Shown here piece by piece: positions 16,249-42,884 of a stretch of DNA of 64,000 bases. The stretch covers positions 1-64,000 of the forward strand of contig JAMCPX010000001.1 of NCBI GenBank assembly GCA_023382265.1, given 5' to 3'. How positions within the stretch are numbered: position 1 is the first letter of the stretch; every line of letters begins with the position of its first letter. The notes under the pieces were generated by a model. The model was not told the DNA's origin and made no database searches. It saw only the letters and a program-made list of their open reading frames with translations. Position numbers and translations under genes: made by a program. The DNA is from Deltaproteobacteria bacterium. Its GTDB lineage: Bacteria > JAMCPX01.

Positions 16249-17373
16249 ATGGATACTATAGAAAAACTTAAGCTCCTCTCGACAGACGCACAACACGATC
16301 TTGCGTGTGCATGCGCAACCGGCAAAGAAGATCGCAGAAAACGCGGGCTTGAGGGCAAGTGGCTTTACCCTGTAACGCTTCCGGACGGCGGGTATTCTAT
16401 TCTTTTAAAAACCCTGCTGTCCAATGCCTGTTCTAACGACTGCAAATACTGTCCACTGCGATCAGAGGCAAATATCAACCGTTGTACGCTTCTGCCTGAG
16501 GAAACAGCGAACATCTTCATGGAGTATAAAAGACAAAAAAAGGTATTCGGTTTATTTTTGAGTTCGGGTGTAATAAATAATCCGGATTATACAATGGATA
16601 GAATCAATGCTGTTGCCCGTATTTTAAGATATAAACACAACTATAAAGGGTATATACATCTTAAGATTATTCCCGGCGCTTCTGATGCTGCTATTGAAGA
16701 CTCTATCTCTCTTGCAAGCGCCGTATCACTAAATATAGAGGCCCCCGGTAATACGCACTTCAAAATTCTTTCTAACAGAAAAAATTTTATGAATGATATT
16801 ATTCGTCCCATAAAGCTTATGAGTAAGCTTACATCAAGAGGAGAAAGGCTTTCGAAAGTAAAATGCACCACACAGTTCGTTGTTGGAGCTTCTGACGAGA
16901 CTGATTCGGAGATCATAGATTATGTGTTCGGTTTATATAATCGCTTGAACTTTCACAGGGTGTATTTTTCTGCTTATCAGAAAGGTCTTGGAGCCGGGGA
17001 TATACCGGGCGAAAGGAAGTTCTTGCTAAATCCTGATGAGCACTTCATGCGGGAGCACCGCCTCTATCAAACTGATTTTCTGATCCGCAGATATGGATTT
17101 GGCATTGAAGATATTATTCTGGACAACTATGGCAATTTAAGCCTGGATAAAGACCCGAAAGAAAAATGGGCGGAAAGGCATCAAGAATTTTATCCAGTCA
17201 GAATTAACAGCGCCGATAAAGAAGCATTGTTGCGAGTTCCGGGTTTGGGACCAAAAACGGTACAGATGATTCTTAAAGCACGCGTGTCAGGGAAGATAAA
17301 CAGCCTTGAGAGCCTTGGAATAACAGGTAAAAGGCTTTTAAAGGTAAAAAGATATGCGACTTTTGAGCATTGA
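16249..17373 (+). CDS. Radical SAM protein of the putative DNA modification/repair type, with helix-hairpin-helix
   Basis: 374 residues. The radical SAM cluster cysteines are Cys61, Cys65 and Cys68 (CX3CX2C), with an extra Cys20/Cys22 pair near the N-terminus. A helix-hairpin-helix, LLRVPGLGPKTVQMILKAR, lies near residues 327-345, as in DNA repair enzymes. This architecture matches the radical SAM family that normally neighbours a uracil-DNA-glycosylase-like 'UDG link' protein. No such partner is present here. Activity is not established for the family. No strong ribosome site precedes the ATG. Confidence 0.82.
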   Translation: MDTIEKLKLLSTDAQHDLACACATGKEDRRKRGLEGKWLYPVTLPDGGYSILLKTLLSNACSNDCKYCPLRSEANINRCTLLPEETANIFMEYKRQKKVFGLFLSSGVINNPDYTMDRINAVARILRYKHNYKGYIHLKIIPGASDAAIEDSISLASAVSLNIEAPGNTHFKILSNRKNFMNDIIRPIKLMSKLTSRGERLSKVKCTTQFVVGASDETDSEIIDYVFGLYNRLNFHRVYFSAYQKGLGAGDIPGERKFLLNPDEHFMREHRLYQTDFLIRRYGFGIEDIILDNYGNLSLDKDPKEKWAERHQEFYPVRINSADKEALLRVPGLGPKTVQMILKARVSGKINSLESLGITGKRLLKVKRYATFEH

Positions 17374-17424: not shown

Positions 17425-17952
17425 CTATTTCCCATGCTCTTTCAGGTACTTTTCAAGCCCTTTCAATAGATTGACGAAGTTTGGCTTAATAAGCCCTAAA
17501 GATATCTTTGAAACCTCCTGGTTGATCCTGTTTTTCAGCAGGAACGGCACGAGTGGATGTTTGCCAAAATCAACGTCAAGGACGCCCGTAACTTTAATGA
17601 CCGTATGCTTGCCATCTGTTGTATAAAAATTCTTCCCGTGAGCTGAAACATAATCTTTAAAGATCAATGGCTCAAAATCCCAGATGCATGCATACTCACC
17701 GCTGATCCATTCTGCCTTATCGAGCCATGCGATTTCGTTTATATTTAATAATTTATTTACGATCACCGGAAGCTGATACTTACCATACCATTTATTTAAG
17801 AGCAAAACCCTGTCTTTTGTTTTTTTTCTTTCAACCATTTCAATCTTTTTTACATTTGGCAGATATTCCACAAGTTTAGAAAGGTCATCTCTTAATGCAT
17901 TAAACACTACATCAATAGGTATATCCGTTTTTAAAGTATATTCAAAATCCAT
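17425..17952 (-). CDS. SRPBCC/START-like ligand-binding protein
   Basis: 175 residues with the pattern of the polyketide-cyclase/START-like helix-grip fold: an N-terminal strand MDFEYTLKTDIP, an early helix (VFNALRDD), alternating hydrophobic strands and a long C-terminal helix. Such proteins bind lipids or aromatic ligands, or act on them. It is the last gene downstream of the CoA-transferase operon, 72 bases beyond subunit B, and may belong to it. It converges with the radical SAM gene. No specific substrate can be assigned. Confidence 0.6.
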   Translation of the reverse strand: MDFEYTLKTDIPIDVVFNALRDDLSKLVEYLPNVKKIEMVERKKTKDRVLLLNKWYGKYQLPVIVNKLLNINEIAWLDKAEWISGEYACIWDFEPLIFKDYVSAHGKNFYTTDGKHTVIKVTGVLDVDFGKHPLVPFLLKNRINQEVSKISLGLIKPNFVNLLKGLEKYLKEHGK

Positions 17953-18024: not shown

Positions 18025-18660
18025 TTATTTGAATTGTAGATTTGCATCCGTACTGTTGATCACCATATCTTTTGTTATACCTGGTGCAAGCTCTTTTAAA
18101 ACAAGTCCGTTTTCTGTTACATCCATCACGCATAGATTCGTAATTATCATAGATACACAAGACTTCCCTGTTAGAGGATAGGTAAGTTCTTTAACAATCT
18201 TAGACTTGCCATCCTTTGTCGTATGGGTCATCATTACGATGATCCTTTTTACCCCGACTGCAATGTCCATTGCACCGCCAATGCTTGGGACCATGCCTGG
18301 TGCTGTCCAGTTTGCAAGATCACCTTTTTCTGAAACCTGATACGCTCCCATAATAGCAAGGTCAAGATGTCCACCCCTTATCATGGCAAACGAGATGTCG
18401 CTTGGGAAAAAGCTTGCCCCGGGTATACAGGTTACAGGCTGTTTTGCAGCATCGACAAGGTCGGGATGCTTTTCACCGGCAACTGCGAAACCCGCCATGC
18501 CCATAAGTCCATTCTCCGTATGAAAAAATACCGTTTCATTTGTTGGTATAAATTCGAGTACATGGGTTGGAATACCAATACCAAGATTAACAAAAAACCC
18601 GTCTTTAACTTCCATTGCAGCACGTTTTGCCATATCCCTTTCATTCATACCAGCGGTCAT
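18025..18660 (-). CDS. CoA-transferase subunit B (3-oxoacid/acetate CoA-transferase type)
   Basis: 211 residues. The catalytic glutamate is Glu49 in the signature FHTENGLMG, and NLGIGIPTHV precedes it as in ScoB/AtoA. An AAAGGAGA ribosome site 6 bases before the ATG at 18660 supports this start over the internal ATG four codons on. It overlaps the end of subunit A by 20 bases. With subunit A it moves CoA between carboxylic acids, probably to or from the product of the acyl-CoA pathway encoded upstream. Confidence 0.92.
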   Translation of the reverse strand: MTAGMNERDMAKRAAMEVKDGFFVNLGIGIPTHVLEFIPTNETVFFHTENGLMGMAGFAVAGEKHPDLVDAAKQPVTCIPGASFFPSDISFAMIRGGHLDLAIMGAYQVSEKGDLANWTAPGMVPSIGGAMDIAVGVKRIIVMMTHTTKDGKSKIVKELTYPLTGKSCVSMIITNLCVMDVTENGLVLKELAPGITKDMVINSTDANLQFK

Positions 18661-19330
18661 AGTACTCTCCTTTTACTATTCTATGAACAAATATGCAGGG
18701 TGTATGTACAGCATCCGGTTCAATGTTTCCCGGCTCAACAAGCTCCTCAACCTCTGCAATTGTCACCTTAGCTGCCATTGCCATCAGAGGATTAAAGTTT
18801 GAACCTGTGTACCTATAAACAAGGTTGCCGTACTTATCGCTCTTGTATGCTTTAACAAAGGCAAAATCGGCATCAAGAGGATACTCCATTACATAATGTT
18901 CTCCATTGATTGTTCGTGTTTCTTTGCCCTTTGAAATGAGCGTATCTGCACCCGTTTTAACATAGAATGCGCCAATCCCTGCACCTTTTGCCCTTATCCT
19001 TTCGGCAAGCGTACCTTGCGGAACAAGCTCAAGTTCTACGAGCCCTCTCTCATAAAGTTCTTTAAAAGACCTTGTTGCCGTCGGGTATGAACCGATAAAC
19101 TTTTTAACCCTGCCTGCTTTAAATAGCATTGCAAGCCCGTACTCATTCTCGTCAAGTCTTGAGCCTGGATTGTTGCTTATAACTGTCAAATCTTTTGTAC
19201 CTTTCTCGTACAGCGCCCTTATAAGGTTCTGAGGTATCCCTGCAAGACCAAAGCCTCCAAACATGATTGTTACGCCGTCATTTACATCCTTTATAGCATC
19301 AATAGAGGTTTTATAGGTTTTTTCAATCAT
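18641..19330 (-). CDS. CoA-transferase subunit A (3-oxoacid/acetate CoA-transferase type)
   Basis: 229 residues with the N-terminal glycine-rich motif MFGGFGLAGIPQNLI and EYPLDADFAF, typical of ScoA/AtoD. It forms a heteromer with subunit B, whose gene overlaps by 20 bases. The start overlaps the DUF35 gene end by four bases. Whether it acts on acetoacetate or a different acid is not visible. Confidence 0.92.
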   Translation of the reverse strand: MIEKTYKTSIDAIKDVNDGVTIMFGGFGLAGIPQNLIRALYEKGTKDLTVISNNPGSRLDENEYGLAMLFKAGRVKKFIGSYPTATRSFKELYERGLVELELVPQGTLAERIRAKGAGIGAFYVKTGADTLISKGKETRTINGEHYVMEYPLDADFAFVKAYKSDKYGNLVYRYTGSNFNPLMAMAAKVTIAEVEELVEPGNIEPDAVHTPCIFVHRIVKGEYYDRWYE

Positions 19331-19872
19331 ATATCCTCTTTAAAATAAAAGTCGGTCATTCTTCCATCCCTCTGTTTTCTAAACATTACCTTTACCCGCA
19401 TCCCGACTTTAACGCTTTTTATATCCTTTACCTCAACGTTTGACAGGATTGCAGTATCAACACCATCGAGCCTTATATACGCAACAATATAAGGCACCTG
19501 TTTTATATAACTTGATGTCCCAAAATAAACGGTTGTATAACTCAATATCTTCCCGGTGCCTTTTAATTCGAGCCATTCTGTCCCTTCATAACAATGAGGA
19601 CACTGTGTACGTGGTGGACAAAATACCTTGCCGCACACATTACACTTCGTTCCCATAAGCCTTTTATGCTCAAGAATTTCCCTGAAAAATCTTGAGTGTC
19701 CGCCATATGAATATCTCATTGTTATCCGCATTGTATCGGGTATTTCAAAAGGTGCATTTATATCTTTATTGTCTAACATATCTTTTTCAAATGTCTTTAT
19801 AATAGACGCAGGCTTTACACCGATACGATTTGCATTGCGTCTTGCCCATTTTAAAAATTCATTCTTATTCAT
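19327..19872 (-). CDS. DUF35 OB-fold/zinc-ribbon acyl-CoA-binding protein
   Basis: 181 residues. A zinc ribbon with cysteines in CNVCGKVFCPPRTQCPHC lies near residues 97-114, followed by an OB-fold (GKILSYTTVYF). An N-terminal helical region of ~70 residues precedes it. Known: DUF35 proteins bind thiolase-like partners, as in archaeal HMG-CoA complexes and in the Ltp2 steroid aldolase complex. The adjoining gene is a thiolase-like protein and the two overlap by four bases, so a complex is very likely. Confidence 0.88.
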   Translation of the reverse strand: MNKNEFLKWARRNANRIGVKPASIIKTFEKDMLDNKDINAPFEIPDTMRITMRYSYGGHSRFFREILEHKRLMGTKCNVCGKVFCPPRTQCPHCYEGTEWLELKGTGKILSYTTVYFGTSSYIKQVPYIVAYIRLDGVDTAILSNVEVKDIKSVKVGMRVKVMFRKQRDGRMTDFYFKEDI

Positions 19873-21068
19873 AGATTGTCCCTCTCAAGTACCAGACACA
19901 CGGTCCATGCGGCACCGGGTCCTCCAATGCTCTGTACCAGTCCTTTTTTTGCATTTTTAACCTGTCTATTCCCTGCCTCATCCCTGAGATGTAATACGAT
20001 CTCATTTGTCTGCATGATACCTGTAGCACCAACAGCATGACCGCATCCAATAAGTCCACCACTTACATTAACAGGTAATTTGCCATCCTTTTGTACAATG
20101 CCTTCATCAATAAGTCTGCCGCCTTTGCCTTCCTCGCAAAACCCGCAATCTTCATAGGCAATGATCTCTGTACCTGTAAATGCATCGTGCAATTCTGCAA
20201 GATCAATATCTTCAACGGGATTTTTTATGCCAGCCATGTCATAAGCTTTTTTTACGGCAATCCTGCTTGATTCAAAGCTGTACAGGTCTTTTCTATTGCC
20301 AATAACAGCCCAATCAAGAGCAGCACCAATACCCTTGATCCAGACAGGTGCTTTTTTAAATTTTTCTGCAACACCTTCTGCTGCAAGGATAAGTACTGCA
20401 GAGCCTTCTGAATAAAGACAATTGTCGTATCTTTTAAATGGATATGCGATCATAGGCGAATTCATTACATCATCTATGCTGAGCTCAATAGGACTCTGGG
20501 CTACAGGATTAAGCATTGCATTTTTATGATTCTTTACAGATACCTTTGCCATCTGGAGTTCTGTTGGACTGCCATATTTTTCAAGATGTGCAATAGTCGT
20601 CAGTGCGAATGAACCCGCCGCTGTTCTGCCTGTTGGCTGCTCATAAGTCATATCTGCTGTATACGAAATCGCCTTTAACACCTCAGGACTTGACCTGTCC
20701 GATTCATAATCAAAACAATCTGCCGACTTCTCAACCCCTACAACAAGACAAACATCGTAAAGTCCTGATGCAATCTGTGCAAATCCGGCACTTATTGCAC
20801 TTCCGCCTGTTGCACCGCCAGTTGAAACCCTAATTGCCGGCTTTGGTGCCATACCTATGTAATCATGAACGAACAGATCGGGCTGGAACTGCCTTTCAAA
20901 AAAGTCATTATAAATCCCATAAACAACACAATCTATGTCATCCTTTGTAATACCGGCATCATCAATAGCCATTTTTACTGCATCATAAGCCAGCTCAAAA
21001 TATGTTTTTTCAATCCACCTTGATCTGAACTGTGTAGTGCCTATACCAACAACACCAACCCTTCTCAT
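19869..21068 (-). CDS. Thiolase-fold protein without the nucleophilic cysteine (SCP2/Ltp-like)
   Basis: 399 residues of the SCP2-thiolase-like type, with AELHDAFTGTEIIAYED and GLIGCGHAVGATG (the GHxxGATG block). In true thiolases the nucleophile lies in an NxCaSG-type motif; the matching segment here is VSTGGATGGSA, with Gly85 in the cysteine slot. The usual second cysteine (CxGGGxG) is replaced by SIGGPGAAW. A standard thiolytic reaction is therefore unlikely. Known precedent: Ltp2, a thiolase-fold retro-aldolase that works with a DUF35 protein and cleaves steroid side chains. The adjoining DUF35 gene fits that precedent. The exact substrate is unknown. Confidence 0.85.
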   Translation of the reverse strand: MRRVGVVGIGTTQFRSRWIEKTYFELAYDAVKMAIDDAGITKDDIDCVVYGIYNDFFERQFQPDLFVHDYIGMAPKPAIRVSTGGATGGSAISAGFAQIASGLYDVCLVVGVEKSADCFDYESDRSSPEVLKAISYTADMTYEQPTGRTAAGSFALTTIAHLEKYGSPTELQMAKVSVKNHKNAMLNPVAQSPIELSIDDVMNSPMIAYPFKRYDNCLYSEGSAVLILAAEGVAEKFKKAPVWIKGIGAALDWAVIGNRKDLYSFESSRIAVKKAYDMAGIKNPVEDIDLAELHDAFTGTEIIAYEDCGFCEEGKGGRLIDEGIVQKDGKLPVNVSGGLIGCGHAVGATGIMQTNEIVLHLRDEAGNRQVKNAKKGLVQSIGGPGAAWTVCLVLERDNL

Positions 21069-22441: not shown

Positions 22442-23482
22442 TCAACCTTTTTCAAGTTTACTAAGTATGGAGTCTATTTCGTCCACTTCTTCAGGTTTTT
22501 CTGTTTTTGGTCCAGATGGTGCAGCTTTAGCGGATGGCGGAGGTTCGGAAGGCTGAGGCTTGTCTATCCTTGCTTTAGACTGTCCCTGCTGCTCTGTGAT
22601 TTTAGGTTTCTCTGCGTAATCAATCTGCTCCTTAATATCTTCAGCTGTAAACTTTTTATCCTTTTCTCCCTTATTTAAACCAAGGTCTGATGCGACAGCA
22701 TCAATAATTTTACTATCGATTTGTTTGGCTTTTAGCAAAAAACCCTCGAATAAAGCATTCGATGAAATAATGTTTATCATCCTCGGTATGCCCTGTGAGT
22801 ATGTATGTATTTTTACCACAGTATCGTCTGCGAATATGGAATCCTTTGAGCCTGCAAGTGATAGCCTGTGTTTTATGTATGCCTCTGTAGACTCATAATT
22901 AAATGATTCCAATTTGTATCTCAGTGCAACCCGCTGGGAAAGGGGTTCATCGAGTTTAAGATTTTCCTCTATCTCGGGTAATCCAAAAAAAACAAAGGTT
23001 ATGAGTTTTCTATCGGACGCCTCAAGATTCAATAATCCCCTGAATTCCTCCATCATCTCTTTATTTTTCAGCATCTGTGCTTCATCAATTAGAACAACGG
23101 CTTTTCTTTTCTGTTCGTATAGCTGCGACAATCTTTCGTAAAGCTGGGACAATAATGTAATCTTATTATCGGAAGGAGCTGAAACTCCGAGCTGCATCGA
23201 GATTTTTTTTAGTAACCAGTCTGCCGTTATTCCTGAATGAATAATAACAAGCAGCGCAGATTCATACTCCTCTTCCGGAAGGCTGTCCAACATACGTCTT
23301 GCAAGAGTCGTTTTACCAGTACCGATATCTCCTATAAGAATAGCAAGCCCTTTCATGCTATCAACCGTATACATAAGCCTCACAAGTGCTTTTGAATGCT
23401 GTGCACTATTATAATAAAACTTAATATCTGGAGCACTTGAAAAAGGTTCTTCTTTTAACTTGTAAAATTCTAAATAATTCAT
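22442..23482 (-). CDS. ExeA/GspA-like AAA ATPase
   Basis: 346 residues. The N-terminal YKLKEEPFSSAPD is typical of ExeA-type ATPases. Walker A GDIGTGKTT lies at 51-59 and Walker B reads VVLIDEAQML. About 80 C-terminal residues are a charged, proline-rich tail (PQPSEPPPSAKAAPSGPK) that replaces the membrane and peptidoglycan-binding part of classical ExeA. The gene starts 12 bases after the TPR protein gene, so both are probably one operon. Role in secretion or pilus assembly is inference from the family. Confidence 0.82.
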   Translation of the reverse strand: MNYLEFYKLKEEPFSSAPDIKFYYNSAQHSKALVRLMYTVDSMKGLAILIGDIGTGKTTLARRMLDSLPEEEYESALLVIIHSGITADWLLKKISMQLGVSAPSDNKITLLSQLYERLSQLYEQKRKAVVLIDEAQMLKNKEMMEEFRGLLNLEASDRKLITFVFFGLPEIEENLKLDEPLSQRVALRYKLESFNYESTEAYIKHRLSLAGSKDSIFADDTVVKIHTYSQGIPRMINIISSNALFEGFLLKAKQIDSKIIDAVASDLGLNKGEKDKKFTAEDIKEQIDYAEKPKITEQQGQSKARIDKPQPSEPPPSAKAAPSGPKTEKPEEVDEIDSILSKLEKG

Positions 23483-23494
23483 ATTATTCCTTTA

Positions 23495-26425
23495 TCAAAT
23501 ATAGGATACCTTTTTCTTTGTTTGTTTTATATTATCTTCTTTCTTATTTTGTATAACCCCGGATTCTTCTATTTTTGTACTCTTATCCGGTAAAGGATTG
23601 TATTGCTGTATCGGTTCATTATTAGTACCGCTGTCCGGCATTATGTGATCTTCCGATAGGGTTTCCGGTTTCATGATCGATTCCAGTGTAAAAACTTCTT
23701 TTTTTTGTTCTTTGTCATTTTCATGTAAATCGATTTGATCAACTTTTACAAATTCTGACAATTTATTCAGCTTTTCTTTTGCATCTCTGAAACTTTCATC
23801 CATTTTACTTACATCTTCATAACTCTTGTAAGCGCTTTTCATATCACCATAAGCCTCATAGGCAAGTGCAAGCTCATAAATCAATCCTTTATTCTCAGGG
23901 GATACCCCGCCTTTTGTATCTAACGCCTGTAGATAAGCATCTATTGCCTTCCCGGGCAAACCTTTACCCATATAACTCATGCCGAGCATAATAAGTCCAT
24001 CCGCCTTCTTTTGCGGCGAGCCGATGGCAATGTTAAACTCATTTATAGCTTCATCTATTAATCCCATTTCTTTATACGCAATACCAAGGTTGTAATGTGT
24101 TTCTGCGTCTTCCTTATCAACCGTTTTTTCTACACCTCTTTTAAAGGCTTCGAGTACCTCTTCCACACTCACCTGCTGCTCTTCCTCTTTTATGGCAGCC
24201 GGCTCTTCCGATGATGCAGCAGTTTGAGATAATTCGTTCTCAAGTGCTTGCGCCAGATCAAAAAGCTCATCAGAAGAAGACACGGAAACAACATGCCGGG
24301 CTTCGTACCCTATAAAAGGCTCTCCTTCCTCTATAACAGTTTGCTCTTCTGGAACGGTTTTTTCTTTGTCAATGATATCATTATACATAGCCTTAGAGCG
24401 TTCTTCATTCGGATACGCAGTCATGATTTTTTCAAGTATATGTTTGGCCTCGGTTAACAGCCCTTGCTGTCTATAAAATTCTGCCTCATCTAATGAATCA
24501 AGGATATCTATATTTGATCCATGATCTAATGCATCACTTCCAACTTCCGGCTCTTTTAAGTTAACGATATCGGCAGAACTTACAGCTCCTATTTCTTTAA
24601 GCTCATCTTCTGAAAAATTAAAATCGACTTCTTCTCCAGGTTTATTATCCCCGGCTGTTTTTTGTTCCTGATGTATATCGCTAAACTCAGGCGTAAATTC
24701 GATCTCTTCGGGTATGGGAAGTGATTCTTCGATAAGATGCTGCGGCTGTTCTGAAGCATGGATAGATTGTTCGTTCATATTATTTTCAATCCGATTAGCG
24801 ATATCTTCCATTTGTTTTACAGGTGCTTCATTATGATCGATTTCTACTTCAAATTCTATATCGGTATTAATATCTTTTGATTCAACAGAGGATGATTGTT
24901 TCTGCTCCTTTGATATCTGTTGAGCAGTCTCCTCTTTAATTTTTAGCTCTTTCTGTGTTTGAGTAGATCTTTCAATCTCGATATCTTCTGTACCCGGATT
25001 GACCTTTTCAACTTTTGTCTTTTCTGATCCGTCTTCTTTTCCTGATGGTGAACTAAATCCTGCCAGTGCCCTTAATAGATCATTTTCAGGGTCGTTTTCA
25101 AGGGCCCTTCTTACATACTCCTCTGCTTTATCTATATCTCCATCATTAATAAAGACATTATAAAGTTTTTCCGCAATTCCGGATGCTTCTATAAACTTTT
25201 TTCCCTGTATGTAGAGTTCAAAAAGTTCTATAAGTGCTATTCTATTACCAGAACTTATTGTAAGGATTTGATTTAATTTTTCTATTGCCTTTGCGTTTAA
25301 ACCATAACGCTTGTACACCTGAGCCTCGGAAAAAAATTTCTCTATATCTTCGCCGGATAAAGATGTTCCGCTGCCTTTTTCTGTATCCTCAGTAACTTTT
25401 TTTTGCTTAATATCATCCGCTTGTTTTATCAAATTGTCTGCAGCGGGTTTTAGGGGTTCTCTTGATTCAATAGGCTCTGCGTGTATCTCTGTATCCGCTT
25501 CCGGAGATGAGTTTTTGGGCAGGCTGCTTCCAATAACAGTCTGGAGAGCTTGTTCATCAGAAGGATCAAGTTCCAAGACCTTTTTATATATATCCACCGC
25601 TTCATTTTTTAAGCCTTCCTTTGTATAAAGCTTTGCAACTTCTTTGTACGCGTTGATAGCAAGTGGATACTTTTCTAATGCTGCATAAGCCTTTGCAAGG
25701 GCGAGGAGTACTTCTGAATCGGATTTACTTAAGTTTATAATTTCCTTTACCTTTAGAAGTACTTTCTGATAATCACCTCTTTTAAGGTAAAGTTTTATCA
25801 ATTGTTTTAACACACTTATTTCACCGGGCTTAACAATCAACATTTTCTCATACACGGTTATCAGATCTATTACTTTTTTAGCTTCTATTAATTTTTGTGC
25901 GATATTTGAAAGTTCCGTGTACGCTTTATCTTTCATTCCGTTTTTAATGTACAGCTCTGATAGCTTCATCTTGCCTGCAAGATTTGACGGCTCAATTTCC
26001 GTTAATCTCTGAAGAATCTGTAAGGCCTCTGTTATTTTACCCTCTTTCTCGTATAGCGCAATTGCGGTTTTATAGTGTGACATTGCATCCGCACCAAGAT
26101 TTTTCTTGGTAAACAACTCCGCAAGTTTCATATAAATTGTGGGGAGTGTCGGATTTATACTCATGACCTGTCGATAAACAGCTATAGCCTTATCGTAAAA
26201 GCCGTTTTGCTTAAATAGATTGGCTGCAAAATCATAGTACTTTACAGCCTCTTCTTTTTGTTCCAATTTTAAGAATAGTTCCGCAATCTTTAAGGCAACC
26301 TGATTATTTTTAGGATCAGCCTCAAGAATCCTTTGCAAATCTTTTATAGCTTTATCAAACTGATTCTTGGCTATAAATTTATTTGCGCTATCCAATAATT
26401 TATTTTTATCTAAAGCAGCCAACAA
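23495..26425 (-). CDS. Giant tetratricopeptide-repeat protein
   Basis: 976 residues. The first ~300 residues are consecutive TPR hairpins (for example DKAIAVYRQVMSINPTLP). Two more TPR units lie near 365-460. A long acidic, Glu/Gln/Ser-rich stretch at roughly 460-640 looks disordered. Further TPR-like helices occur near 650-690, and a clear TPR block of ~130 residues starts near 775. No signal peptide or membrane segment is seen, so it is probably a cytoplasmic scaffold. The only partner suggested by context is the ExeA-like ATPase that follows 12 bases later. The specific function is not recognised. Confidence 0.8.
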   Translation of the reverse strand: MLAALDKNKLLDSANKFIAKNQFDKAIKDLQRILEADPKNNQVALKIAELFLKLEQKEEAVKYYDFAANLFKQNGFYDKAIAVYRQVMSINPTLPTIYMKLAELFTKKNLGADAMSHYKTAIALYEKEGKITEALQILQRLTEIEPSNLAGKMKLSELYIKNGMKDKAYTELSNIAQKLIEAKKVIDLITVYEKMLIVKPGEISVLKQLIKLYLKRGDYQKVLLKVKEIINLSKSDSEVLLALAKAYAALEKYPLAINAYKEVAKLYTKEGLKNEAVDIYKKVLELDPSDEQALQTVIGSSLPKNSSPEADTEIHAEPIESREPLKPAADNLIKQADDIKQKKVTEDTEKGSGTSLSGEDIEKFFSEAQVYKRYGLNAKAIEKLNQILTISSGNRIALIELFELYIQGKKFIEASGIAEKLYNVFINDGDIDKAEEYVRRALENDPENDLLRALAGFSSPSGKEDGSEKTKVEKVNPGTEDIEIERSTQTQKELKIKEETAQQISKEQKQSSSVESKDINTDIEFEVEIDHNEAPVKQMEDIANRIENNMNEQSIHASEQPQHLIEESLPIPEEIEFTPEFSDIHQEQKTAGDNKPGEEVDFNFSEDELKEIGAVSSADIVNLKEPEVGSDALDHGSNIDILDSLDEAEFYRQQGLLTEAKHILEKIMTAYPNEERSKAMYNDIIDKEKTVPEEQTVIEEGEPFIGYEARHVVSVSSSDELFDLAQALENELSQTAASSEEPAAIKEEEQQVSVEEVLEAFKRGVEKTVDKEDAETHYNLGIAYKEMGLIDEAINEFNIAIGSPQKKADGLIMLGMSYMGKGLPGKAIDAYLQALDTKGGVSPENKGLIYELALAYEAYGDMKSAYKSYEDVSKMDESFRDAKEKLNKLSEFVKVDQIDLHENDKEQKKEVFTLESIMKPETLSEDHIMPDSGTNNEPIQQYNPLPDKSTKIEESGVIQNKKEDNIKQTKKKVSYI

Positions 26426-41921: not shown

Positions 41922-42884
41922 ATGTTACGAAGTATTTTAATTGTAGATGACTCAGCAAGTGTAAGGCTGGAGTTAAAGGCTCTACTTGAAGAAACAGGGC
42001 TGTTTGATATGTTTTACGAGGCCTCTGATGGTATAAAAGGCTTCAAGATGATGCTTTCTCATCCCCCCGACATAGTAATTTGTGATCTTTTTATGCCGAA
42101 TTTTGATGGATTCAAGTTCCTTAAACTAAAACAGGCACGCCAGGAGTTTGATAAAATTCCTGTATTGATTGTTACTGGAAGAGACGATCTAAATGATAAG
42201 ATACACGTTCTCGAGGAAGGTGCACAGGATTATGTAACAAAACCGTTTAACCCGCCTGAACTTGTTGCAAGGGTAAAATCTCACCTGAGAATAAAGTTGC
42301 TTCAGGATGAGCTTATATCAGCGAACGAAAAGCTTGAAACACTATCCAATATCGATCCTTTAACAAGCCTGTATAACAGAAGATATTTTATAAATGCCTA
42401 TGAAAGGGAATTCGAAAGGGCAAAAAGGTATGAAAGGGCATTGTCATTATTAATGGTTGATCTGGATCACTTCAAAAACATAAATGATACATACGGGCAT
42501 TTAGTCGGTGATAAGGTTTTAATAATAGTTTCACGTATATTAAACACGGATCTTAGAAAGATAGATATATGTGCAAGATACGGGGGTGAAGAATTCATTA
42601 CAATGCTTCCCGAAACGGACTTAAAAGGTGCACTCGCCGTTGCGAACAGAAACATAAGTGATATGAAAGAGCACGATTTTTCCGATATCTGTTATAATAC
42701 AAAAACGATTACATTTTCTATCGGTATCGCCTGTCTTCCCAATAATCAGATCAGCAGTGCAGATGATCTCCTCAAGGCTGTTGACGATGCACTGTATGAG
42801 GCAAAAGGGCTTGGCAGGAACCAAATTGTTACATACAAAGAAATAAAACCCAGAAACAATCCGGTTGCTTTTATTAAAAAATAA
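41922..42884 (+). CDS. Response regulator with diguanylate cyclase (REC-GGDEF)
   Basis: 320 residues. The receiver domain has acidic pocket Asp9/Asp10, phospho-acceptor Asp55 (ICDLFMPNFDG) and Lys107. A coiled linker (~125-145) joins it to a GGDEF domain with the active site GGEEF at 221-225. The product-inhibition I-site RKID (212-215) is five residues upstream, as in feedback-controlled enzymes. It should make cyclic di-GMP on phosphorylation, like PleD/WspR proteins. No cognate kinase lies beside it. Confidence 0.93.
   Translation: MLRSILIVDDSASVRLELKALLEETGLFDMFYEASDGIKGFKMMLSHPPDIVICDLFMPNFDGFKFLKLKQARQEFDKIPVLIVTGRDDLNDKIHVLEEGAQDYVTKPFNPPELVARVKSHLRIKLLQDELISANEKLETLSNIDPLTSLYNRRYFINAYEREFERAKRYERALSLLMVDLDHFKNINDTYGHLVGDKVLIIVSRILNTDLRKIDICARYGGEEFITMLPETDLKGALAVANRNISDMKEHDFSDICYNTKTITFSIGIACLPNNQISSADDLLKAVDDALYEAKGLGRNQIVTYKEIKPRNNPVAFIKK

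Follow-up and report, generated by a model that had tools for sequence, protein, structure and literature searches.

What can an enzyme with a thiolase fold do once the cysteines of the thiolase site are gone? The question is raised by a gene in the window, that is, the whole 64,000-nucleotide stretch analysed here (positions 1 to 64,000 of contig JAMCPX010000001.1 in assembly GCA_023382265.1, from a Deltaproteobacteria bacterium). In thiolase chemistry the pocket histidines hold the CoA-ester enolate, and formation of the acyl-enzyme needs the nucleophilic cysteine. The two cysteines of SCP2/archaeal thiolases, that is, the nucleophile and the one in HDCF, are both missing in the product of this gene (Gly85 and Ala296), and the histidines of the HD and GHP motifs are both present (His294 and His344).

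Operon organization

The gene is the second of five on the minus strand between 22204 and 18025, in the order acyl-CoA dehydrogenase-like protein (ACAD), thiolase-fold protein, DUF35 protein and CoA-transferase subunits A and B, with overlapping stops and starts (Table 1). The two open reading frames that the initial annotation had placed at 19327-21068 lie exactly there, and the coupling it proposed to DUF35, ACAD and CoA-transferase genes is borne out by the domains found, by the CoA-transferase pair and by the ATGA/TAATG overlaps at the gene junctions, which point to translational coupling. The DUF35 partner has an intact zinc ribbon (C77-x2-C80-x10-C91-x2-C94), carries an N-terminal extension of about 60 residues and finds 6esq_E as its top DUF35 structure match. 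A hydratase, which the initial annotation had suggested looking for beside the gene, was not found in a domain search of the operon genes; the hydratase matches of the whole genome (2.63 Mb, 96% complete), two MaoC and five crotonase-family, all fall outside the operon.

Table 1. The five-gene operon of the window and the active-site codons of its thiolase-fold gene
Feature	Position	Strand	Remarks
ACAD, 378 aa	21068..22204	(-)	Thr243 and Gln364 at the two known catalytic Glu positions
Thiolase-fold protein, 399 aa	19869..21068	(-)	Main gene; both cysteines replaced
Gly85 codon	20814..20816	(-)	Position of the thiolase nucleophile Cys
His294-Asp295-Ala296 codons	20181..20189	(-)	HDAF; HDCF in Cys-bearing relatives, YDHF in Ltp2, YDCY in Sal
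Cys342-Gly343-His344 codons	20037..20045	(-)	CGHAVGATG; Cys342 clade-invariant; His344 is the thiolase GHP histidine
DUF35 / ChsH2_C OB-fold partner, 181 aa	19327..19872	(-)	PF01796 + PF12172
CoA-transferase subunit A	18641..19330	(-)	3-oxoacid CoA-transferase subfamily, TIGR02429
CoA-transferase subunit B	18025..18660	(-)	TIGR02428; catalytic-Glu ENG motif present

The order ACAD, thiolase-like, DUF35, CoA-transferase is retained in relatives. The operon genes recur together in the metagenome-assembled genomes (MAGs) L045-L048, apparently from mine-drainage sediments, and locus L049 has them without the CoA-transferase. Among the genomes compared, the closest relatives of the source genome are eight of one family; beyond these, only the domain is shared.

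Fold and phylogenetic position

The AlphaFold2 model of the main gene product (pLDDT 92.3, pTM 0.94, from a 49-sequence alignment) indicates that it is of the SCP2/archaeal-type thiolase fold. The top Foldseek match is the archaeal acetoacetyl-CoA thiolase 6et9/6esq (TM 0.92, 32% identity), and ranks 26-28 include Ltp2 (6ok1; TM 0.84, 24% identity) and Sal (TM 0.85). The best NCBIfam matches, PRK06365 (358 bits, cut-off 695) and PRK06064 (368 bits, cut-off 420), are both under their cut-offs, and neither of these "thiolase domain-containing protein" families has an assigned function. A paralogue on contig C39 of the same genome, also without the cysteine (GGATGG/HDAY), reaches 691 of the 695 bits for PRK06365.

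In a quick IQ-TREE maximum-likelihood tree, with SH-aLRT support only and several long branches, the window protein falls in a clade of bacteria and Asgard archaea (SH-aLRT 97), where its neighbours are further Cys-less proteins from this genome. It stands apart from Ltp2, Sal and 4u4e in this tree, with SH-aLRT 97 branches in between.

Active site of the thiolase-fold protein

phmmer alignments match Gly85, in the motif VSTGGATGG, to the nucleophilic Cys of three thiolases: 6esq, 7yvy and 6hsj, the last an SCP2-thiolase from zebrafish. Residue columns were counted in an alignment of 93 homologues, of which 72 form the clade of the window protein and 12 bear the cysteine. In the nucleophile column all 72 clade members have Gly and all 12 Cys-bearing homologues have Cys, so that Gly85 cannot be put down to misalignment or to an isolated mutation. 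The initial annotation had read Gly85 as the replaced nucleophile and had allowed that a correct alignment might put a cysteine there; its reading is upheld. Its second cysteine motif, SIGGPGAAW, was misplaced: the C-terminal SIGGPG loop is normally without Cys across SCP2/DUF35-type thiolases, and the second cysteine belongs to HDCF, a column with Ala in 72/72 clade members (Ala296, HDAF) and Cys in 12/12 Cys-bearing homologues. The alanine is not diagnostic alone, because the Pyrococcus thiolase 7yvy pairs HDAF with a nucleophilic Cys.

The active-site residues His294, Asp295 and His344 are invariant in 72/72 clade homologues. To these the clade adds invariant residues of its own, namely Tyr219, Glu221, Cys342, Ala345 and the loop residues Y50, Y53, N54, R59, Q60 and D64. 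The resulting signature of G85, Y219, E221, HDAF and CGHAVGA, invariant across the 72 clade members, which come from Asgard archaea and several bacterial phyla, is new, and its YSEG, HDAF and CGHAVGA motifs are also present in two more distant relatives (L173/L174, ~40% identity). With both histidines kept and both cysteines removed, the site would be able to hold a CoA-ester enolate and unable to form an acyl-enzyme. Judged by sequence, the replacement of both cysteines by small residues around retained His294, Asp295 and His344 would be the pattern of a working, non-thiolytic site.

Two other readings bear on this pattern. The protein could still be a thiolase that uses another nucleophile such as Cys342 or Cys217, both of which are clade-invariant. 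We regard this as very unlikely: Cys217 is also found in 7/12 Cys-bearing thiolases and is therefore not a new nucleophile, and Cys342 occupies the position two before the GHP histidine, which in thiolases is mostly Lys or Phe, and probably sits on a different loop from the nucleophile. Alternatively, it could be a non-catalytic scaffold or regulatory subunit that works with DUF35 and a Cys-bearing thiolase encoded elsewhere. The PhlABC system, in which an inactive superfamily member is found together with a DUF35 protein and PhlA is proposed to play such a supporting part for PhlC (PMC2954200), provides a precedent, and the genome has Cys-bearing relatives on contigs C25 and C33. A dead subunit would be expected to be relaxed, however, and the active-site His and Asp and the positions around them are invariant at 50-60% identity over two domains of life; moreover, a co-encoded Cys-bearing thiolase is absent. 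A scaffold role is accordingly improbable in our view. The gene is not decaying either, as amino-acid change between orthologues is low (dN 0.066-0.087) against saturated synonymous sites.

Comparison with structurally characterized relatives

The closest solved fold, the archaeal thiolase/DUF35/HMG-CoA synthase complex (6esq/6et9), shares with the window protein a DUF35 partner and the HD.F and GH.xGATG motifs. It retains the nucleophile Cys (AACASG) and HDCF, in place of which the window protein has Gly85 and HDAF. A solved Cys-less relative, ST0096 of Sulfolobus tokodaii (4yzo), has Ser at the nucleophile position and keeps the HD and GHP histidines, but it has HDMA and no CGHAVGA or YSEG signature, and groups with other proteins on the tree.

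The initial annotation saw here the arrangement of an Ltp2-like retro-aldolase pathway. Gly at the nucleophile, the DUF35 partner and a Glu-less ACAD agree with this proposal; the missing Tyr base, the tree position and the lack of a hydratase in the operon do not. In Ltp2 the catalysts are Tyr294 of YDHF and Tyr344, and in Sal they are Tyr302 and Cys304 of YDCY, with Gly at the nucleophile position (PMC12329534). With the Ltp2-ChsH2 steroid aldolase (6ok1), in which ChsH2 is the DUF35 subunit, the window protein has in common the Gly, the DUF35 subunit with the same C4 zinc ribbon spacing and the ACAD context; with the Sal-Shy bile-acid aldolase (9myr), where Shy is the DUF35 protein, it shares the Gly and DUF35. 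At the level of sequence, the active-site comparison with Ltp2 that the initial annotation had proposed gave a divided result. Beyond the shared Gly, the aligned PDB sequences read YDHF/GEAY in 6ok1 and YDCY/FGQ in 9myr, against HDAF/CGHAVGA in the window protein, which thus lacks both tyrosines of Ltp2. All 72 clade members have His294 where YDHF/YDCY place the catalytic Tyr base, and the catalytic-acid positions are not matched, with Ala296 at Cys304 and CGHAVGA at the GEAY region of Ltp2. The GHP-type histidine, lost in both Ltp2 and Sal, is kept as His344. Finally, the MaoC hydratase co-encoded in the Ltp2 and Sal systems has no counterpart in the window operon, which has no MaoC-DUF35 fusion; both MaoC domains of the genome are on contig C30. 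As far as sequence can tell, the window protein shares the loss of the nucleophile with these aldolases and not their replacement catalysts; it is Ltp2-like in logic, lies outside the Ltp2/Sal group on the features tested and is no ordinary thiolase.

The experimental record on these Cys-less proteins also bears on a third reading, a decarboxylase of malonyl-type or 3-carboxyacyl-CoA, KSQ-like in that the Cys is replaced, in which the two histidines would hold the enolate and a base would be unneeded. The retained histidine pair and lost cysteine agree with it, and a very slow decarboxylation of malonyl-CoA is known from TbSLP, a relative with the same fold and likewise without the Cys (PMC12329534). 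Malonyl-CoA decarboxylation was not seen with the Cys-less Sal, however (PMC12329534), the operon suggests neither a carboxylase nor a carboxylated substrate, and the clade-specific Tyr219, Glu221 and Cys342 would be left without a role. We consider a decarboxylase unlikely.

A retro-aldol parallel is offered by the IpfD/IpfE pair of ibuprofen degraders, which, like the window pair, consists of a thiolase-type enzyme and a partner subunit. For this pair the literature describes retro-aldol cleavage of a non-steroid acyl-CoA, ibuprofenyl-CoA (PMC9195938). The IpfD/IpfE substrate is an aromatic diol made by a dioxygenase. IpfE is of the DUF35 type. Actinobacterial steroid side-chain loss, the precedent named by the initial annotation, is outdated as the only one, as Sal is proteobacterial and the described IpfD/IpfE substrate is not a steroid; a non-steroid substrate, which the initial annotation would have counted as new, has thus been described before.

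The Glu-less acyl-CoA dehydrogenase

In the five closest solved ACADs the catalytic base is the Glu of ..EGT.., and the window ACAD has Gln364 there. A second base position of the IVD/LCAD type is known in ACADs (PMC11153573), and this is Thr243. Both Glu losses are common to all orthologues examined (L045-L049 and L050, the latter 49% identical) and to a related protein at L083 (39%). Elsewhere in the genome, almost every ACAD retains Glu at one position or the other, the exceptions being partial or divergent matches. At L050, the gene immediately upstream of the Glu-less ACAD encodes a second ACAD that does carry Glu, at the IVD position, and at L047 a Glu-bearing ACAD is found about 1.6 kb away in divergent orientation. 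The orthologue of these Glu-bearing proteins in the source genome is unlinked and encoded at C37:30096-31202; it shares 80% identity with the protein from L047 and 61% with that from L050. By eye, its gene adjoins lipoamide-dehydrogenase-, GcvH- and NfnAB-like genes (L168).

Steroid ACADs are α2β2 assemblies with the catalytic Glu in one subunit only (PMC8399759). Because of this precedent and of the Glu-bearing partner near the Glu-less ACAD in relatives, the window ACAD is likely the Glu-less subunit of a predicted heteromeric dehydrogenase with the C37 protein. An operon ACAD without Glu at either base position, like one subunit of the heterotetrameric steroid enzymes, is a new observation.

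Proposed function

From the observed fold, residues, conservation and operon we infer the chemistry, its direction and the substrate as follows. The CoA-transferase would form the CoA ester of the substrate acid, the ACAD as a heteromer with its C37 partner would desaturate it, an enzyme encoded outside the operon would add water, and the thiolase-fold protein with its DUF35 subunit would cleave the resulting 3-hydroxyacyl-CoA in a retro-aldol-type reaction. In the retained enolate pocket His294 and His344 would hold the thioester oxygen; with the nucleophile absent an acyl-enzyme would not form, and Gly85 may leave space for the departing carbonyl part. The role of base or acid, played by the Tyr of YDxF in Ltp2 and Sal, could fall to His294 or to the clade-invariant Cys342, Tyr219 or Glu221.

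Retro-aldol cleavage fits best because the bacterial context is one of acid activation and an ACAD. It is supported by Gly at the nucleophile in both proven aldolases of the fold (Ltp2 and Sal), by the co-encoded DUF35, acid-activating and ACAD genes, and by the pairing of a Glu-less ACAD with a Glu-bearing partner, which matches the heterotetrameric ACADs that feed steroid DUF35 aldolases (PMC8399759, PMC11153573). Against it stand the non-conserved Tyr residues of Ltp2/Sal and Cys304 of Sal, an operon without a hydratase, the Lokiarchaeota gene without an ACAD neighbour, and a paralogue on contig C8 without an ACAD or CoA-transferase. On balance, a CoA-ester C-C lyase of retro-aldol type, with a His-His enolate pocket and no acyl-enzyme, in a five-gene acid-catabolic operon, is the reading we prefer tentatively, at somewhat below even chances.

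One active site would do for both directions, and the protein could instead join acetyl-CoA (or propionyl-CoA) to a ketone or aldehyde in an aldol-type condensation. Such a synthetic role is favoured by the Asgard loci, where the gene pair is retained but has no ACAD beside it; it is nonetheless quite improbable here, as the acid-activating and ACAD genes of the bacterial operons point to breakdown.

For the retro-aldol lyase, a candidate reaction is the cleavage of an HMG-CoA-like tertiary 3-hydroxyacyl-CoA to a 3-oxoacid and acetyl-CoA, the 3-oxoacid being taken by the adjacent CoA-transferase. HMG-CoA-like substrates are suggested because a 3-oxoacid-type CoA-transferase adjoins and no HMG-CoA lyase was found above the family cut-off in the genome. 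Alternatively, the CoA-transferase may simply activate the substrate acid, since relatives in other phyla lack it. A BKACE (beta-keto acid cleavage enzyme) was considered as a common pathway part and rejected: the source genome has none. It neighbours the homologue in Desulfovirgula and in a MAG of the Myxococcota.

The wider proposal, of a distinct Asgard and multi-phylum bacterial family with His-His, Cys-free and Tyr-free C-C lyase or aldol chemistry on a non-steroid substrate, fed here by a steroid-type heteromeric ACAD, is possible but doubtful. If true, Ltp2 with its Tyr/Tyr pair and Sal with its Tyr/Cys pair would be joined by a third way of making a C-C lyase out of a thiolase. A widespread Asgard and bacterial enzyme would then be misannotated as "thiolase" with the acyl-enzyme needed for thiolysis impossible, and pathway models that invoke it as evidence of beta-oxidation or acetoacetyl-CoA synthesis would contain an error there.

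Distribution and gene neighbourhoods

A single scan across named genomes yielded 63 loci, from the mine-drainage family, Myxococcota, Desulfovirgula, Oligoflexia, Manganitrophaceae, about 40 Lokiarchaeota, and Njord- and Sigynarchaeum. At E <= 1e-85, matches were found in 14 of 386 sampled genomes, nine of the 14 being from the window's own family, and no homologue was found in the viral contigs searched. Bacterial relatives from other phyla have ACADs and AMP-forming acyl-CoA ligases nearby, without the window-type CoA-transferase. The Lokiarchaeota gene has as neighbours a DUF35 gene and one for a weakly SCP2-like protein, not an ACAD. This SCP2-like protein of ~123 aa, whose match falls just short of the Pfam cut-off, is encoded after the thiolase-like/DUF35 pair in 40/44 Asgard loci (examples are L062:10721, L068:10742 and L103:10753), and acyl-CoA-ligase-like ORFs recur nearby in 21 loci (by eye). 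In the set of papers searched, no publication treats Lokiarchaeota, DUF35 and thiolase together.

Related clusters in the same genome

The cluster at C30:18297-21896 (L140, L170) encodes an ACAD, a Cys-less thiolase-like protein whose HD position is taken by Tyr (EVYGVF), a DUF35 protein and two MaoC domains, the only MaoC matches of the genome. From its gene content and motifs it appears to be the actual Ltp2/ChsH-type module of this genome. A divergent CapK/CoA-ligase-like gene is also part of it. The cluster shows no link to steroids in the features examined. A steroid pathway was considered and rejected on the evidence of such gene clusters, of which this DUF35/MaoC/ACAD one alone looks Ltp2-like.

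The C8 paralogue (C8:68801-70599, L138) is Cys-less, 62% identical to the window protein and has its own DUF35; in related genomes a DUF2889 protein gene comes after this pair. At C30:70078-73315 (L141) two thiolase-like genes, both without the nucleophilic Cys, lie in tandem between two DUF35 genes, an order also seen in Lokiarchaeota loci L073 and L102. The C39 paralogue (C39:43142-44431, L139), of the PRK06365 type, has a DUF35 gene at 42598 and an adjoining B12-binding-domain gene. At C25:19815-22430 (L142) a Cys-bearing thiolase (HDCF) adjoins a gene in which an HMG-CoA-synthase/KAS III-like domain is fused to DUF35. Judged by eye, the same genome encodes a DXR-like protein of the non-mevalonate pathway as well (L169).

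In the window itself, the gene directly downstream of the operon (17425-17952, minus strand) encodes a 175-aa protein with no Pfam or NCBIfam match, the N-terminus of which resembles, by eye, a START/SRPBCC lipid-binding fold. At 16249-17373 on the plus strand is a radical-SAM/HHH protein near the "rSAM_link_UDG" DNA repair family and below its cut-off. On the other side of the operon (22442-26425, minus strand), an XrtA/PEP-CTERM-type ATPase, also below cut-off, adjoins a 976-aa TPR protein resembling SgmX.
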